This document shows, one piece after another, positions 6,866-35,400 of a stretch of DNA of 64,000 nt. Numbering within the stretch: position 1 is the first letter of the stretch; each line of letters begins with the position of its first letter. Position numbers and translations under genes: made by a program. The DNA is from Bacteroidota bacterium (GTDB lineage Bacteria > Bacteroidota > Bacteroidia > Chitinophagales > Chitinophagaceae). The stretch covers positions 1 to 64,000 of the forward strand of contig JAFDXL010000010.1 of the NCBI GenBank assembly GCA_018267955.1, given 5' to 3'. Under the pieces are notes generated by a model, which saw only the letters and a program-made list of their open reading frames with translations, did no database searches and was not told the origin of the DNA.

Positions 6866-8083
6866 CTATTTATTGCTCATGATCTTCTTAGCCTCTATGC
6901 TAAGAGTAGCATGTGGTACAGCACGCAGGCGAGCCTTATCTATCAGCTTACCGGTAACACGGCATATACCGTAAGTTTTGTTTTCGATACGGATCAGCGC
7001 TTTTTCCAGGTGGTTGATGAACTGGATCTGGCGGCTGGCGAGCTGCGCTAATTGTTCGCGCTCCATAGCACCGCTACCATCTTCCATATTCATGTAGCGG
7101 TTCTCAGTATCTTCTGTACCTGCTTCATCTTTGCGGGTAATAAGGCCCTGCAGGTATATAAGTTCTTTACGTGCGCTTTCTAAGCGGCCTTGTATAAGGT
7201 CTTTAAATTCGTTGAGTTCTTCGTCACTATAACGGTACACTGGTCCTTGCATTTGTTCAGGTTCATCTAATATGGAACGCGTAAATTCCGGTTGGTAATT
7301 GATCATTGTTTTGCCTGCATCGTCCTTTGACTTGGCTTTGTTTTCCAGGCGACGGTGCGCTACTATTACCTGTGGCTTCTTCTCAGCATTACGTACAGGT
7401 GTTGCCTGTTTGGTAGGTGCTGCCACCGATGCAGTTGACGCAGATGCGGATGATGGCCTTGAAGGCAATGCACCCTTTGCAAATGTGGTTACTGTTTTAG
7501 TAATATGCGTTTTTGCCGCGCTTGACTTTTTAGCCGGTTTTGCAGCCACCGGTGCCGGTGCCGGTTTAGCTGGCTCTGCTTTTTTAGGAGCAGGGGCAGG
7601 TGCCGGTTTAGGAGCAGGCGCTGCTTTCTTTACCGGTTCTGCTTTCTTAGCAGCCACTTTAGGAGCGGGGGCCGGTTTTGCTACAGCTTTTTTAGCAGGT
7701 GCTGCTTTGGGGGCAGGAGCCGCTTTTTTAGCTGCTGCTTTTGGGGCAGGTGTTGCTTTTTTTGTACTTGATACGGTCTTTTTCAATGAGTTAGCTTTTT
7801 TCGAGTCCACTTTTTTAGTGGCTGTCACCTTTTTGGCCGGGGCTACTACCTTTTTTACGGGTTTTGCCTGGGCGGCCTTCTTAGCAACAGCCTTTTTAGC
7901 AGGAGCCGCTTTTTTAGCAGGCGCTGCTTTTTTGATATTCTTTTGAGGCGTTGCCTTCTTCACGTTCTTATTCTTCCCGGCCACAGATTTGCTGGCAGCT
8001 GGCTTTGCTGCTGTCTTTTTTGCGTTTTTTGCAGGCGCTGTAGTTTTCTTTACTGGCTTGGCTGCCGCTTTTTTAGTGGCCAT
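6866..8083 (-). CDS. Histone H1-like (Lys/Ala/Pro) tail fused to a TraR/DksA-type C-terminal domain
   Basis: The 405-aa protein has two very different parts. Residues 1 to about 195 are low-complexity Ala/Lys/Pro (many AKKA, PAKK, APKP blocks), like bacterial H1 (Hc1/AlgP) tails that bind DNA. After a linker, residues about 265-405 look like the TraR/DksA family: two long helices and a C-terminal YGICRVTGKLIDKARLRAVPHATLSIEA. The classical four-Cys zinc finger is reduced to one Cys at the first position, so zinc binding is doubtful. It starts 7 bp after the ileS stop, so the two are likely cotranscribed, and a terminator follows. DksA-type proteins act at the RNA polymerase secondary channel. 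The fusion would add a DNA or RNA tether, which is inference. Confidence 0.85.
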   Translation of the reverse strand: MATKKAAAKPVKKTTAPAKNAKKTAAKPAASKSVAGKNKNVKKATPQKNIKKAAPAKKAAPAKKAVAKKAAQAKPVKKVVAPAKKVTATKKVDSKKANSLKKTVSSTKKATPAPKAAAKKAAPAPKAAPAKKAVAKPAPAPKVAAKKAEPVKKAAPAPKPAPAPAPKKAEPAKPAPAPVAAKPAKKSSAAKTHITKTVTTFAKGALPSRPSSASASTASVAAPTKQATPVRNAEKKPQVIVAHRRLENKAKSKDDAGKTMINYQPEFTRSILDEPEQMQGPVYRYSDEELNEFKDLIQGRLESARKELIYLQGLITRKDEAGTEDTENRYMNMEDGSGAMEREQLAQLASRQIQFINHLEKALIRIENKTYGICRVTGKLIDKARLRAVPHATLSIEAKKIMSNK

Positions 8084-13519: not shown

Positions 13520-13815
13520 GTTGAGCATGTTCCAGGTGTTCAATAGTGTTCAACTGTTCCATGAATTGAACAAATTGAACAGTTGAACGGTGTTTATCTT
13601 GTTTACTTTGTTCATCTTGTTCACGATGTTCACCATGTTTACAGCGTGAACACTTGAACAGAACTGTTCCAGTGTTCCAGGTGTTCCAATGATGGAACGG
13701 TTGGAACATTTTCCAGCTTTTCCATATTTCCATGCTGGAAAATTGGAAAATGGAAAATTGCTGGTTGTTTTAGGTGTTTCATTTGTTTCATCCGTTTCAT
13801 GGTGAAACATGAAAC
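13520..13815. repeat. Upstream 'word-ladder' block: five multi-register hairpin modules
   Basis: Intergenic DNA between the MBL gene and the ConA/TonB-C gene is made almost wholly of five short words. Each is repeated 2-6 times at 7-11-bp spacing and then mirrored by its reverse complement. Module A (about 13521-13588) uses GTTCAA/TTGAAC. B (13591-13660) uses GTTCA or GTTTA, then TGAAC. C (13664-13708) uses GTTCCA x3 then TGGAAC x2. D (13709-13764) uses TTCCA then TGGAA. E (13767-13815) uses GTTTCA x3 then TGAAAC x2. Each can fold in several registers. The open frames seen here on the minus strand are by-products of the repeats. The same words recur at 15168-15496. Confidence 0.85.
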
Positions 13816-13873
13816 AGACTTTTTGTAGCATAATGCTCTCTCCCTATATTATGATTTCTTATCTTGATACGTC

Positions 13874-15166
13874 ATGACAAGAAAACTACTACCACTATTT
13901 ATCATACTACTCTATCTGCAATGTAATGAAGCATATTCCCAATCTCCTCATAATTCGGTAACCGACTACGACTATTATACTCCTGCCGACAGAGAGCCCA
14001 TCTATCACGATGAGTTTAATGCGATAAATGACAATAATAAAGACTGGATAAATAATGATGACCCATTCTTTCAATTAAAAGTAAAAGATGGTTGTCTTAT
14101 TATTACGAATAATAAAACTACCTATACCGCGTCAAACTATATCCTGCAATTCGGATATCTCAGAGATTTTGAATTAGAAATATGTGCTAGGGTAGAAAGC
14201 CCTAAACGCCGTGAACGTCACGGTATACTTTTCTGGGGAAGTGATTCCGCTATCACTCAAATGAATGGCCAATTCTTTTATTTCAGACATGGGCAACATA
14301 TGTTGTTTAACAAAACAGGCAAAGAACAAAGGAACAACTCCTTACCGGTACCCGACTTTACCTTTTATGATAAAAAAGATTTCAATATCTACACCATAAG
14401 AAAAGTAGATTATGACTATTACCTATTCATTAATCATGTATTCTGTAATAAATATCCTTACTTCCCTATAAACGGGCAGTTAATAGGATTGGGAGCATCT
14501 TCTAACGGCACAACAGCCTACTACGACTATATACATATTGATTATTTAAAAAGGCATGAACTGAATAACCCAACGGCTGAATATAAATCGGGTACTGCAG
14601 GTTTAAAAACTTATTTGAATGAACACCTGAAATTTACCCAAACAGCTGCTTATGAATGTATGAGGGGAAGATTTCTTGTAAGATATAGAGTGGATACAAC
14701 AGGTAAAATTGACAGTATTATAGCATTAAGTGCCTACGACATTTTGAATCAACAGACAATAAAAGCATTAACTGAGACGAACAATAACTGGTTGCCGGCA
14801 CATCATAAAGGTGTTGCCATGGTATCCTGGAATAAGATGGTGGTTGAGTTCAGATTAAATTCAAATGGAAATTGTCCACAACCTACCTATTATTATGATA
14901 TAGCTATGAAATATTATAAAGAAGGTAATATACCGGAAACCATAGAGAACTTTAAAATCTCAATTGGAGAGGATTTTGCAGACATTAAATCACTATATAA
15001 TCTATCGATGCTATACATTAATCAACAGCAATATGATAGCGCAGCTATTTATCTAAACCGAATAAATGAATTAAGATCGATACCCGAGCTCGACATCAAA
15101 CAGGTAAATGAGGAAATAGCCAAGACAGATGCAGACATATATATCAAACAATATTGCAAGTTGTAA
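13874..15166 (+). CDS. Secreted multidomain protein: ConA-like lectin domain, TonB C-terminal domain, TPR
   Basis: The 430-aa protein has a signal peptide (residues 1-22, ending EAYSQ). Residues about 35-225 look like a concanavalin/LamG-type sandwich (DFELEICARVESPKRRERHGILFWGS; IYTIRKVDYDYYLFINHVF), as in 3-keto-disaccharide hydrolase or laminarinase-type folds, but I see no catalytic motif. Residues about 240-335 match a TonB C-terminal (energy-transducer) domain: FLVRYRVDTTGKIDSIIALS...LTETNNNWLPAHHKG. Residues about 345-420 form two TPR-like helix pairs (AMKYYKEGNIPETIENFK; LYINQQQYDSAAIYLNRIN). No N-terminal TonB membrane anchor is present, so it is not a classical TonB. It is enclosed by the two word-ladder repeat blocks. 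Function unknown. Confidence 0.75.
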   Translation: MTRKLLPLFIILLYLQCNEAYSQSPHNSVTDYDYYTPADREPIYHDEFNAINDNNKDWINNDDPFFQLKVKDGCLIITNNKTTYTASNYILQFGYLRDFELEICARVESPKRRERHGILFWGSDSAITQMNGQFFYFRHGQHMLFNKTGKEQRNNSLPVPDFTFYDKKDFNIYTIRKVDYDYYLFINHVFCNKYPYFPINGQLIGLGASSNGTTAYYDYIHIDYLKRHELNNPTAEYKSGTAGLKTYLNEHLKFTQTAAYECMRGRFLVRYRVDTTGKIDSIIALSAYDILNQQTIKALTETNNNWLPAHHKGVAMVSWNKMVVEFRLNSNGNCPQPTYYYDIAMKYYKEGNIPETIENFKISIGEDFADIKSLYNLSMLYINQQQYDSAAIYLNRINELRSIPELDIKQVNEEIAKTDADIYIKQYCKL

Positions 15167-15167
15167 C

Positions 15168-15496
15168 ATTCCATTTTCCAATTTTCCATTTTCCACCCTG
15201 GAATATTGGAAAACTGGAAAATCCTGTATTGTTTCATTGTTTCATTATGAAACAGTGAAACAGATGAAACAAGTGAAACACTACTTTTAATATGTTCTGT
15301 TCACGTGTTCATACTGTAAACATGATGAACATCGTGAACAAGCTGAACAAAGTAAAACGGGAAAACTCACTGTTCAACTGTTCAATTTGTTGAACACCCT
15401 GAACAGTTGAACACCATTGAACACTTGTTCCGCTGTTCCACCGTTCCAATACTGGAACATCTGGAACGCTGGAACACCTGGAACAGTACGGAACAC
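15168..15496. repeat. Downstream 'word-ladder' block with the same five words in another order
   Basis: The block begins 2 bp after the stop codon of the enclosed gene. The module order is D' (TTCCA x4 then TGGAA x3, 15168-15222), E' (GTTTCA x2 then TGAAAC x4, 15229-15279), B' (GTTCA words then TGTAAAC, TGAAC x3 and TAAAAC, about 15292-15357), A' (TGTTCAA x2 then TTGAAC/TGAAC x4, 15370-15423) and C' (GTTCC/GTTCCA x3 then TGGAAC x4, 15425-15496). Copy numbers and spacers differ from the upstream block, so it is not a simple duplication. The shared element is the set of five words and the arrangement of each word followed by its complement. Confidence 0.85.
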
Positions 15497-29406: not shown

Positions 29407-32400
29407 TTAGTTTTTAATGAAACGAGATGTATTTACCCTTGTACCATTTTGCAGCACAGTTACCATATAAACACCTGCAGATATATCAGAAATATCTACC
29501 TGTGCTCCTTTATTGATAAATGCACCTGACTTGATGCGCTTGCCAGATATATCATATACCTCATAGCTAAGGTCATTTACAGATCCGCTAACTTCTATGT
29601 TCACCATTTCCGTTGCAGGGTTTGGATAAACACGAACGGTAGTTGCTTCTTCGTTTATCTCCTGTATGCCGGTAGCCATGTTATAATAGCTCTTCTGCTG
29701 GCAACCATTCTTCATGGTCATCACCCAATAGTTCCTGCTAGCAAAATCCGGGTTCGGGTTGTAATAATCCTGGCCTGTTTCTTTAGCTATAACGGCAGAG
29801 TCAAGTGTATGAGTATCATCATAGCCCCACACATAAGCATCCACATCGTTTTGCAGGCATACAAACCTGTTGTTTATGTAGATCACTTTAGGATTTTGTG
29901 CATCGGTAGCACCTACACTTACGGTATAGGTAGCCTTACTGCGGCAACCGGTACTGGTAATAGTAGAGGTGAGGGTAATAACACTGGTTCCTTCTTTCGG
30001 GAAGCTGATCAATGCATTTTGTGCGCCATCCTTGCTTTGCGCCCAAACTATTGCATTACTGGCCGTCCATACATAACTGCTGCCTGCAGGTGCCGGTAAA
30101 GAAGCACCAAAGTTTTGATACATCGTTTGCTCACAAACCGTGTTTGCCGGTTTTACTGATATCGTAGCAATTACCGGTGTTGGATGCACTGTTAATACTA
30201 CGTTCTGAGTATTGCTGCAACCATTTGCCGTTAATGTATACACATAAGTAACATTAATATCCTGTGCAGTTGAGTTGGTCAGCACTTCATTAATAGCACC
30301 ATTACCGGTAGCAGTTGCTGGTGTAATACCTGTAACCTGGGCACGTGTCCATGTCATAGTGGTACCAGGGGTTGCACTTGCAGGATTATAAACAAAAGCA
30401 TCACCGCTACAAATAACACCTGTTAATGCTGTACTTAATTGCGGTGTTGGATTCACTACCAAAGTAAAGCTTTGGGTGTTCGTGCAGCCATTTGCAGTAA
30501 GCGTATAATCGTACGTTACGGTAACAGGCAGCGCAGTTGTATTATTTAATGTTTCTGAGATAGCGCCTGTACCGCTACCCGCTGCATTGCTGATACCGGT
30601 TACTGCTGCACGTGTCCAGGAGAAGCTAGTACCCACAGTAGCACTTGCTGGCGTATAAGCAAACAATGTATTATTACATACAGGTGATACTGTTAACGGA
30701 GAACTCAACTTAGGTGTTGGATTCACTACCACCGTTACATCCTGGGTATTGGTACAGCCATTGGCATCCAGCGTATAGGTGTATATTACACTGATCGGAT
30801 CTGCAGTAGTATTTTCTAATGATTCATTAGGATCATTTACACCACTTGCTGCAGGATTAGAAATGCCTGTGATGGCAGCACGGCTCCAGCTAAAGCTGGT
30901 ACCTGTTGTTGCGCTTGCAGGCAAATACGTAAACAGATCATTGTTACATATTGGCGCAGGTGTTAGTGTAGTTGACAACATCGGAGTAGGATTTACCGTA
31001 TAGGTAAATGTACCTGTGTTACCTACACAACTATTAGCGGTCGGAGTTACAGTTACTGTAGCTACCACAGGAGCAGTAGTAACGTTTGTTGCAACGAATG
31101 AACCTATATTACCTGACCCGGAGGCTGCAAGGCCAATGGATGTTGTATTATTAGTCCATGCAAAGGTAGTACCTGTTACAGAGCCCGTGAAGTTTACCGC
31201 ACTGGTGCTGGAATTATTACACAAAACCTGGTTGGCAACCGCATTCACATCAGGTGTTGGATTCACCGTATAAGTAAATGTACCTGTGCTACCTATGCAA
31301 CTATTGGCGCTTGGTGTAACGGTTACTGTGGCAACGACAGGCGCATTGGTAGTATTGGTTGCAGTGAATGCACCGATATTGCCATTACCTGTTGCCGCGA
31401 GGCCAATAGAAGTTGTATTGTTTGCCCATGCATAAGCAGTACCACTTACCGATCCGCTAAAGTTTACTGCGTTTGTAGTAGCGCCATTACATAATGTTTG
31501 GCTAGCTACTGTGTTTACAGTTGGGGTTGGATTTACGGTAACAATAAAGCTCTTGTTACTACCTACGCAACTATTAGCGCTTGGCGTTACCGTAACGGTA
31601 GCAAGTACAGGCACATTCGTGCTGTTAGTTGCAGTAAACGAAGCTATATTACCAATTCCTGAAGCCGCAAGGCCTATAGATGTAGTACTGTTTACCCATG
31701 CATAGCTGGTACCACTTACCGATCCTGTAAAGTTCACGGCAGTAGTTGCCGCATTATTACAAACCGTTTGGTTTGCTATGGTATTAACATCAGGAGTAGG
31801 ATTAACAGTTATATTAAACGACTTACTGCTACCGATGCAACTATTTGCAGATGGTGTAACGGTTACAGTAGCAATAACAGGCGCGTTAGTAATATTGGTA
31901 GCTGTAAATGCAGCAATATTACCCGTTCCTGAAGCCGCAAGGCCAATCGAGGTTGCGCTATTGATCCATGAATAAGTAGTACCGCTTACAGAACCGCTGA
32001 AATTTATTGCAGCTGTGGTAGCACCATTACATAAAGCCTGGTTTAAAATAGTGTTCACATCAGGTATTGGATTAATAACAACGGTAGCGCTGCTCAGCAT
32101 AGAGCGGGTACACGTTGTATTAGTGTTAGTTGCTATCACTGTATAAACACCTGCAGCAGTTTGGTTACCAAAGCTGATAGCAAAACCGGTACCTGTTACC
32201 GGGCTGCCTGTAGCTACAACGCCATTATATAGCTGATACGTAGTATTTGTTTCGCTACCGCTTAATCCTATTGCTACACCTGTACCGCCGGCACAATATG
32301 CGCCACCACCGGTTACATTGTATTGCACAATGGCAGGTGGCTGTGTAATGAAATATGTTTTATTTGCAGTACAACTATTAGCATCCGTAACGGTTACTGT

Positions 32401-35400
32401 ATAAGAACCTGCTACAAGGCCACTGGCTGTAGCACCCGTACCACCGCTTGGAGACCAGGAATAGGTATAACCCGGTGTACCACCTGCTGGAGCGACAGTA
32501 GCGCTACCATTAGCTAATCCGAAACAGGAAACATTGGTTTGAGAACCTGCCGACAAGCTGATAGCAGTAGGCTGGGTTACTGTGAAGTTTTTATTCAGTG
32601 TACAAGCATTGGCATCTGTAATGGTAACCGTGTAGGCACCGGCAGCAAGGCCGGTTGCTGTTGCAGCTGTACCGCCACTTGGAGACCATGAATAAGTATA
32701 ACCCGGTGTGCCGCCACTAACTACTACTCCTGCTACACCGTTGCTGCCGCCGTTACAACTAACATTAGTTTGAGAGGTCGATGCAACCAAAGCTGTTGGT
32801 TGGGTTAGTGTAAAGTTTTTAGTTAGCTGACAAGTATTCGCATCTGTAATAGTTACTGTATAACTACCTGCAGAAAGGCCCGTAGCCGATGCAGCAGTAC
32901 CGCCGCTTGGAGACCATGAATAAGTATAACCCGGTGTGCCACCGCTAACTGCTACACTAGCAGCACCATTACTACCCCCATTACATGCAATATTGGTTTG
33001 AGAAGTGCTGGCGCTCAGAGCTGATGGCTGTGTAATGGTGAAGTTCTTGGTTAAAATACACGTATTACCATCAGTAACGGTTACTGTATAGCTACCGGCA
33101 GTTAACCCGGTCGCTGTAGCTGCTGTACCACCACTTGGCGACCAGGAATAATTATACGGACCTGTACCGCCTGTTACGTTTACACCTGCAGATCCATTGC
33201 TACCGCCATTACAGCTAACATTGGTTTGAGAGGTTGATGCGGCAAGGGCTGTTGGCTCCGTAATAGTATAATTTTTCGTAGTTGCACATGCATTAGCATC
33301 TGTAATTGTAACGGTATAAGTACCTGCCATAAGGCCTGTAGCTGTTGCTGCTGTGCCGCCGCTTGGCGCCCATGAATAGGTATAGCCCGGTGTACCGCCG
33401 CTTACAGATACAGTTGCAGTACCGTTGCTGCCACCATTACAGCTCACATTTGTCTGAGAGGTAGACGCACTTAAAGCTGTAGGTTGTGTTATGGTAAATG
33501 TTTTGGTCATGGTACAGCTGTTGGCATCAGTAATAGTTACTGTATAAGTGCCTGCAGCAAGGCCTGTAGCTGTTGCTGCTGTACCTCCGCTAGGAGACCA
33601 TGAATAGGTATAACCCGGTGTACCGCCACTAACAACTACACTCGCAGTACCATTGCTGCCACCGTTACAACTCACGTTTGTTTGAGAGGTCGCCGCACTT
33701 AATGCTGTAGGTTGGGTAATTGTAAAGTTTTTAGTAGATGTACAGCTATTAGCATCGGTAATAGTCACTGTATAGCTACCAACAGAAAGTCCGGAAGCTG
33801 TAGCAGCAGTACCACCGCTTGGAGCCCAGGAATAAGTATATCCGGGTGTTCCGCCGCTAACTACTACAGTCGCTGAACCATTGCTGCCAGCATTACAGGC
33901 AACATTTGTTTGAGACGTGCCCGCTGTTATTGCAGGAGGTTGAGTGAGTGTAGCGCTCTTAGTTGTGGTACAACCGTTAGCATCCGTAGCTGTAACTGTA
34001 TAAGTACCTGCAGAAAGGCTTGTAGCTGTTGCTGTTGTAGCACCGCTCGGAGACCAGGAATATGTATATCCAGGCGTGCCGCCGCTTACAGATACCGTTG
34101 CAGCACCTGTACTACCGCCATTACATGCAATATTTGTTTGAGAAGTTATCGTTGCTGTCATTCCTGACGCAGGTTGCGTCAAAGTAGCGTTTGCAGTTGC
34201 CGTACAGCCATTATTATCGGTTACTGTAGCTGTGTAACTACCTGCCTGCAAGCCTGTAGCTGTTGCAAAGCTGCCGCCGGTTGGCGACCAGGAATAGCTA
34301 TAAGGTGCAGTACCACCGCTACCTGCAACCGTAGCCGAACCGGTACTGCCACCGTAACATGTAAGATTAGTCTGAGACGTTATTGAAGCTGACAAAGACG
34401 CTGCCGGCTGGGTAATTGTAAAGTTCTTTGTTGTCTGGCAGCTATTATTATCGGTGATCGTAACTGTATAGCTACCTGCTGCAAGGCCTGTAGCCGTAGC
34501 TGCCGTACCACCGCTTGGCGACCACGAATACGTATAACCCGGCGTGCCGCCACTTACGCTTACTGTAGCGGTACCGTTGCTGCCACCACGACAACTCACA
34601 TTTGTTTGAGAACTAGTTGCAGATATTGCAGAAGGTTGTGTTATGGTAACATTCTTAGTAGCAGTACATGCGTTGGCATCTGTAATAGTTACAGTATAAC
34701 TACCGGCAGAAAGCCCGGTTGCAGTAGCTGCTGTACCACCACTCGGCGCCCAGGAATATGTATAAGATGGTGTACCGCCGCTTACGCTTACTGTAGCTGA
34801 ACCATTGCTGCCACCGTTACAGCTTACATTATTCTGAGACGTTGTAGCCGATATTGCCGTTGGTTGGGTAAGCGTATAGTTTCGTGTAGCAGTGCAACCT
34901 ATATTGCTGGTAACGGTTACGGTATAAGAACCTGCTGAAAGGCCGGTGGCTGTGGCGCCGGTGCCACCACTTGGCGACCAGGAATATGTATAAGGTGTAG
35001 ACCCCCCGCTTGCCGTAACGGTTGCAGAACCATTACTGGCTCCGTTACAGCTCACATTTGTCTGCGAGCCACTTGTAGAAACCGTTTGCACCGTTAATGT
35101 AGCAGACGTCGTAGTTGCAGCGGGGCTAACAGACCCTGTAGCAACCATTCTGTAAGAATAGCCATTCATGCCGGCAGTAGCACCGGTGATGCTAAGTGTA
35201 GTGCTTGTAGCGCCGGAGTATACCCCGCCGTTACTTATATTTCCGAAACCAGAGCCTTGGTCTACCTGCCATTGATAGCTGGTAGCATTGCTGGCAGCAG
35301 CTGTAAACGAAGTATTTCCCCCTGCACAAACTGTTTTATTGCTTGGGTTTGTTGTTATAGATGGTGCAGACGCCGACCCCGTCACCGTATAGGTCATCGT

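Follow-up and report, generated by a model that had tools for sequence, protein, structure and literature searches.

We propose that two blocks of short palindromic word arrays, which bracket a single gene in the window (the whole 64,000-nucleotide stretch of DNA that was analysed), belong to a system of addressed gene slots. The explanation, which we consider likely as a whole, is that the words are sites for the helix-turn-helix (HTH) of ATPases of Tn4555-related elements, that arrays of such words bound exchangeable cargo slots, and that the window carries an orphan five-word cassette. The case is built by comparing sequences, which establishes the arrays, their pairing and inversion, the differing genes inside the same borders, the covariation between word and HTH, and the contrast between one-word arrays and stacks.

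The first block occupies 13528-13816 and consists of five consecutive palindromic modules, each made of direct copies of a word followed by its reverse complements, about 7-10 bp apart. The words are, in order, TGTTCAA, TGTTCA(C/T)/TGTTTA, TGTTCCA, TTTTCCA and TGTTTCA:

13528-13588, no strand: left-block module A, TGTTCAA direct and then reverse-complemented, with one TGTTCCA at the start and one inside; TGTTCAA also lies beside the ATPases of loci L281 and L289.
13591-13660, no strand: left-block module B, TGTTCA(C/T) and TGTTTA; TGTTCAC also lies beside ATPases L298 and L302.
13664-13708, no strand: left-block module C, TGTTCCA; also beside ATPases L300, L301 and L316.
13709-13757, no strand: left-block module D, TTTTCCA; no ATPase with this word was found.
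13766-13816, no strand: left-block module E, TGTTTCA; also beside ATPases L280 and L283.

To identify such structures mechanically, we used a detector that calls a module where a 6-mer has at least two direct and at least two reverse copies, and at least five in total, inside 110 bp. It returned eight modules in the 64-kb window, all of them at 13537-13815 or 15175-15495, while ten dinucleotide shuffles of the window gave none nine times and one module once. The architecture of words and mirror complements described in the sequence-only reading is therefore real; its account of the second module needed slight correction, as this module mixes GTTCA and GTTTA words. Folded as RNA, the left block reaches -110.8 kcal/mol (z = -7.2), which supports the multi-register hairpins that had been suggested for it, and the block on the other side of the gene folds more strongly still (z = -11.2). 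Such folding, together with the intergenic position, could indicate RNA elements that terminate, insulate or stabilise the flanking transcripts. We regard this as very improbable, given that there is no excess of intrinsic terminators, taken as G+C-rich stems with a T tract (two sites between 13400 and 15700, one of them inside module E, compared with 1.1 +/- 1.2 in shuffles) and no Rfam match in the window at gathering thresholds; a terminator role would also predict neither the link between word and HTH described below nor stacks of different words. Elsewhere in the window, at 30977-35064, are long tandem repeats of 228-270 bp that are about 71% alike.

The second block (15169-15496) lies beyond the gene and carries the same five words in a different module order:

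13874-15166, plus strand: cargo gene, 430 aa, with weak TPR and TonB_C similarity below curated cut-offs and a 428-aa ortholog in the related genome G195.
15169-15222, no strand: right-block module D, TTTTCCA.
15229-15281, no strand: right-block module E, TGTTTCA.
15293-15358, no strand: right-block module B, TGTTCAC/TGTTTAC-type words.
15371-15424, no strand: right-block module A, TGTTCAA.
15426-15496, no strand: right-block module C, TGTTCCA.

The two blocks are inverted repeats of one another, scoring 127 when aligned inverted and 59.5 when aligned direct, with 85% agreement over 134 bp on the minus strand. Two strict word patterns gave 17 and 8 matches in the 4.18-Mb genome, none outside the two blocks (reversed-pattern controls gave 0), and a looser pattern gave 26 matches, 25 of them inside the blocks (control, 2).

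The window's genome (G000) and G195 carry orthologous blocks round orthologous genes at the locus of the isoleucyl-tRNA synthetase IleRS, a protein that is 98% identical between them. The cargo genes themselves are identical at about 76% of aligned bases, measured over their first 600 nt. Within the blocks, word columns have changed less than spacers: in the first block 173 word columns are unchanged and 8 altered, compared with 63 and 19 spacer columns (p=1.1e-5), and in the second the figures are 174 and 5 compared with 112 and 24 (p=6.5e-6). The word set is therefore conserved in a related species rather than randomly degenerating, and no transposon end was found at the block, so that on both counts the original description stands. 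Copy number and strand-switch point do differ between orthologous modules of the two genomes, as would be expected if the blocks were neutral products of slippage or template switching at a palindrome. Conservation of words above spacers argues against that origin, as does the recurrence of arrays beside one rare gene family with its HTH link, and we consider it extremely unlikely. At L104:6864-7834 the G195 locus has one extra gene (246 aa, no Pfam match) and one extra block of the right-hand type relative to the window.

Relatives of the cargo gene were found in 58 of 195 family genomes, a set that includes G000 and leaves G195 outside; all matches other than that of G000 are partial and weak. 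Matches to the neighbouring metallo-hydrolase within the genus are all distant, so that this gene is of no help in defining an empty site, and neither an empty site nor an excised form was seen among the loci compared. Pfam identified no integrase, excisionase or DUF6371 protein among the seven neighbouring window proteins.

The looser pattern matched in all 15 genus genomes, with 0 to 2 control matches per genome; three genomes (G094, G199 and G203) have only one or two matches each, which may be chance. Among the places listed, which take in only a minority of those in G169 and G203-G206, genus blocks mostly form pairs or triples 0.6-1.8 kb apart round one or two genes. When block pairs scoring at least 28 were compared, 19 of 21 fitted the inverted better than the direct orientation, the exceptions being the two right-hand blocks of G195, and L119. 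At the recA locus of four genomes (G196, G197, G198 and G201) mirrored modules surround a gene, and in the last three of these the modules run, from the outside inward, TTTTCAC, GTTCCA-type and TGTCCC. The enclosed gene differs: it is GldM-like in two of the four genomes and SIR2-like in another, and the fourth has two small ORFs in this place. The similarity of G197 to G201 stops about 5 bp or less from the inner edge of the innermost modules. Other palindrome families of GTCATTGCGAGGAACGAAGCAATC type occur at L117:5515-5545 and 6880-6910 and at L109:4775-4815, also inverted round cargo; in L117 the GTCATTGCGAGGAACGAAGCAATC-type palindromes are nested within the TGTCCC layer.

A scan for a TGTTCAA triple gave seven matching stretches in viral contigs, and a scan of a contig database gave at least 119, from many phyla. 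The detector was run on 80 of the latter, many of which are single intergenic palindromes that we do not claim as members. A Saprospiraceae genome, C1_MAG_00026 (contigs JAIXOO01; L146-L215), contains tens of intergenic GGTTCCA-type palindromes, mostly one per intergenic gap.

When block-adjacent genes were clustered, a single family proved to recur at unrelated places: an ATPase with an AAA_25 domain and a C-terminal HTH (Pfam). In seven loci its stop codon is 1-12 bp away from a block. The predicted structure of the protein (mean pLDDT 81.5) resembles DnaB helicases, KaiC, T7 primase-helicase and RadA in Foldseek searches, with E values of about 1e-10 to 1e-9 and query TM-scores of about 0.4-0.5. 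The ATPase is rare, being present at 20 places in 10 of 15 genus genomes and in 23 of 394 family genomes (E<=1e-60). Of 27 ATPase genes, 21 have a module no more than 150 nt from the stop; among 153 other genes that encode 200 aa or more, 22 do (p=1e-10), and 16 of these 22 are cargo genes with their second array. Overall, the detector found a module after 27 of 36 ATPases; at six of the nine loci that it missed (L294, L304-L307 and L314) short arrays can be recognised by eye. No array is visible at L312, L313 and L321, the ATPases of L308 and L310 have a different C-terminus and GTAAC-type arrays, and at L055 the ATPase gene itself sits between arrays. Where a genus genome has two or three copies, each copy has a distinct word (9 of 9 genomes); outside the genus, two of the three copies in G136 share TGTTCCA. 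In the genus the ATPase is weakly associated with blocks, occurring in 9 of 11 block-rich and 1 of 4 other genomes (p=0.08), and the window's genome itself gave no match at E<=1e-20. Upstream of 7 of 27 ATPase genes (L322, L323, L324, L331, L332, L122 and L132), at about 40-210 bp from the start, there is a dyad of the form TTGTACATTTGT(G/A)CAA or similar; given that a similar dyad lies near recA in G198, SOS-type control of these genes is possible.

The evidence that ties words to this protein is their covariation with its HTH. From 37 ATPase loci (L280-L316) we removed L315 by an ORF rule and L308, L310, L312 and L313, which have another C-terminus or no clear word, leaving 32 loci whose words were read by eye. 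In these, word distance correlated with that of the recognition helix, taken as 11 residues (Mantel r=0.50, p=1e-4; partial correlation given the ATPase part 0.51, p=1e-4), and did not correlate with that of the remaining ATPase sequence (0.07, p=0.19). In the 24 loci that remain without the TGTAACA group and L314 the partial correlation was 0.37 (p=1e-4). A separate, blind version computed from 5-mers gave 0.615 (partial 0.591, p=1e-4); here the ATPase part correlated weakly (0.212, p=2e-4), and no longer did so once the HTH was accounted for. Consistent with this, predicting the word from the locus with the nearest HTH was exact in 14.75 of 24 cases, and from the nearest ATPase part in 4 of 24.

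This covariation can be read as a residue-to-base code. Across 26 unique pairs, arginine at HTH residue 9 is paired with C at position 6 of the word (16 of 17), lysine with AC (4 of 5) and asparagine or isoleucine with A at position 6 (4 of 4), while residues 4-5 fit word positions 3-4 in all 26 under a residue grouping made after seeing the data; L299 and, outside this set, L344 are exceptions to the code. Beyond these pairs, it fits three closely related Tn4555-type records with TGTCCC (L348-L350) and a viral contig with mostly TGTTCAC (L341); L337-L339 again belong to the TGTAACA class, L346 agrees at position 6, and no code reading was obtained for L345 and L347. Both the helix (EGAVRKW) and the array word (GCGTAC type) are new in another viral-contig relative of the ATPase (L342:4951-5120), which can therefore serve to test the code. 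From such comparisons we conclude that, very probably, each word is recognised by the C-terminal HTH of a helicase-like ATPase that has a DnaB/KaiC-like fold and is carried by Tn4555-related integrative elements.

In the loci that carry the ATPase, its gene is commonly followed by an array, a cargo gene in the same orientation and a second array, and then, often after small ORFs, by a gene for a DUF6371/zinc-ribbon protein. The last was found by clustering in 13 of 27 fetched loci, with two confirmed by Pfam. Array pairs round cargo align better inverted in 15 of 19 cases, tie in two and align better direct in two. Cargo annotation relied on Pfam for all 21 proteins and on PADLOC for 12 of them. 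By raw count, 7 of the 21 are clearly of defence type (bSEFIR, AbiU/AIPR, Fic, SIR2, OLD-like and two TIR proteins); an eighth, weaker match is a TIR effector at L326, and the remainder have no or weak family matches. SIR2-like and putative AbiC genes also occupy slots that have no ATPase.

In CP103138.1 the AAA ATPase and DUF6371 genes occur with an integrase and an excisionase in the Tn4555 order, a gene list that includes ATPase-DUF6371 with integrase and excisionase in Table 4 of PMC13183296. Tn4555-type records have a TGTCCC array at the ATPase/DUF6371 junction, and their HTH (GKSTV) fits the code. In the gut Bacteroidota records L348:1040-1075, L349:7150-7230 and L350:1400-1800 the TGTCCC arrays lie partly within the end of the ATPase reading frame. 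The window locus resembles these elements in that four of its five words are words read beside the family's ATPases; it differs in having no ATPase, DUF6371, integrase or mobilization gene alongside, and five words rather than one.

A similar difference in word number is seen across loci. By our own reading, arrays round cargo contain several words at 10 of 15 loci without an ATPase and at 0 of 20 with one (p=1.6e-5). The main tally counts as one word the doubtful loci L335, which has another module about 220 bp outside, and L130, which has mixed copies; if both are counted as several, the contrast is 10 of 15 against 2 of 20 (p=9e-4). With orthologs collapsed it gives p=5.7e-4, and 5 of 8 against 2 of 20 (p=0.009) if the doubtful loci again count as several. 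Among ATPase loci the count left out L317-L319 (no cargo), L334 (no module detected), L055 (ATPase between arrays), L321 and L336, and among loci without ATPase it left out L105, L114, L115 and L121. The window is such an orphan stack: TGTTCAA, TGTTCAC, TGTTCCA and TGTTTCA match ATPase words, and TTTTCCA has no known partner. At L112 of G198 each side has five words, all seen beside ATPases and two of them the words of that genome's own ATPases; in G195, G197, G201 and G169 orphan words mostly differ from those of the resident ATPases. The sequence-only reading had treated the block as standing alone with no assignable role, a view not supported in the light of the paired block round the gene, the recurrence of blocks round exchanged genes in the genus and the four words found beside the ATPase-HTH family.

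An alternative is that arrays are only origin or autoregulatory sites of the ATPase elements, and that pairs and stacks are scars of successive insertion or loss which are inert in the window today. The cargo-free loci L317 and L318 favour this, having a single array between the ATPase and DUF6371 genes, as does the lack of an ATPase in the window's genome. Both loci have a tyrosine integrase upstream, joined in L318 by an HTH_17 gene. Against it, the words of orphan blocks are conserved above their spacers, and both words of the resident G198 ATPases are present in the orphan stack of that genome; we therefore think scars unlikely. The conservation of words in the window's genome although the ATPase is absent there also counts against our own explanation; it could reflect another binder, incoming elements or the concerted evolution of copies. 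Further points against it are the partnerless word TTTTCCA, the ATPase loci that lack an array, have GTAAC-type arrays or have the ATPase itself between arrays, the exceptions to the code, the orphan words that mostly differ from those of resident ATPases, the weak association of ATPase and blocks, and the lack of an empty site or excised form among the loci compared.

We also considered REP/BIME-like or terminal repeats moved by a RAYT-type (Y1/HUH) transposase. Genes flanked by inverted hairpin repeats recall the RAYT genes with long terminal inverted repeats, the REPtrons and TIRtrons, in the account of Di Nocera (2013; PMC3733652), and Y1_Tnp genes are present in 10 of 15 genus genomes. 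The resemblance ends with that arrangement, since the repeats and the protein family are different, no TTC-type word array occurs within 1.5 kb on either side of any of 20 Y1_Tnp loci, and the words instead track the ATPase HTH. We rejected this reading and give it hardly any credence. The genus RAYT-type genes (L264-L279) are themselves mostly flanked by other, inverted double hairpins, like the REPtrons and TIRtrons of PMC3733652; L273 has GTTCAAG and no array. The earlier claim that the block matches no known class accordingly holds for the classes tested, namely Rfam families, RAYT-flanking repeats and terminators.

Two other known systems invite comparison. Iteron-type origins, which have repeated sites for a RepA-like initiator or helicase, resemble the arrays in that short repeats adjoin a gene encoding a helicase-like protein. 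The iterons of separate compatibility groups also differ from one another, as do the words of coexisting ATPase elements. The adjacency of repeated sites to the gene of a cognate protein, expected of an iteron-type origin, is seen at ATPase-linked loci, where the pairing is putatively cognate, and not in the window. The present arrays differ in being palindromic and two-stranded, in bounding a cargo slot and in stacking several specificities, and an origin role for them is putative. Integron cassettes and attC-only arrays consist of single genes bounded by foldable sites, with the acting enzyme nearby or not, and the window cassette is alike in this respect. It differs in having mirrored arrays of 7-bp words on both sides and an ATPase-HTH as the associated gene, and no integron integrase was found at the window locus among the ORFs examined.

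These data allow us to suggest a mechanism. The ATPase would most likely bind its own word through the HTH and act at the palindromic array beside its gene; this one-word array is probably a site of helicase loading, replication or recombination, and as such would serve the integrative element. Cargo genes, often single-gene defence systems, usually have an array on both sides and may thereby occupy an exchangeable slot, with cargo swapped at the two arrays; comparison gives the differing genes within shared borders and does not extend to the enzymology. A cassette that passes through, or is served by, several elements would gain several words. We infer the physical binding, the origin or exchange-site role of the arrays and the ability of a stack to let several elements serve one cassette. 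A more specific form, in which cassettes are addressed in trans, is put forward tentatively, as plausible but somewhat short of an even chance: the HTHs of the elements' ATPases would diversify by a simple residue-to-base code, single genes for defence or other functions would move from element to element and into the chromosome within matching arrays, and orphans would gather concentric multi-word arrays and so be served by several elements. Searches of open-licence PMC papers gave no description of a gene bracketed by stacked arrays of multiple specificities and linked to a residue-to-base code; the parts are of known kinds (a helicase-fold protein, iteron-like sites, defence cargo), and we rate their combination as a new kind of system.

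On this explanation, odd intergenic word palindromes become readable sites with a candidate protein partner and a testable residue-to-base code. It also suggests where Tn4555-type mobilizable elements are likely to have a site of replication or recombination; a review from 2017 places the maintenance of such excised elements under the heading 'An Unexplored World' (PMC5704250). Finally, pairs of arrays provide a sequence signature for exchangeable single-gene slots. Given that 7 of 21 ATPase-linked slots hold clearly defence-like genes, genes of unknown function between such arrays, perhaps including the 430-aa gene of the window, are candidates for such functions.
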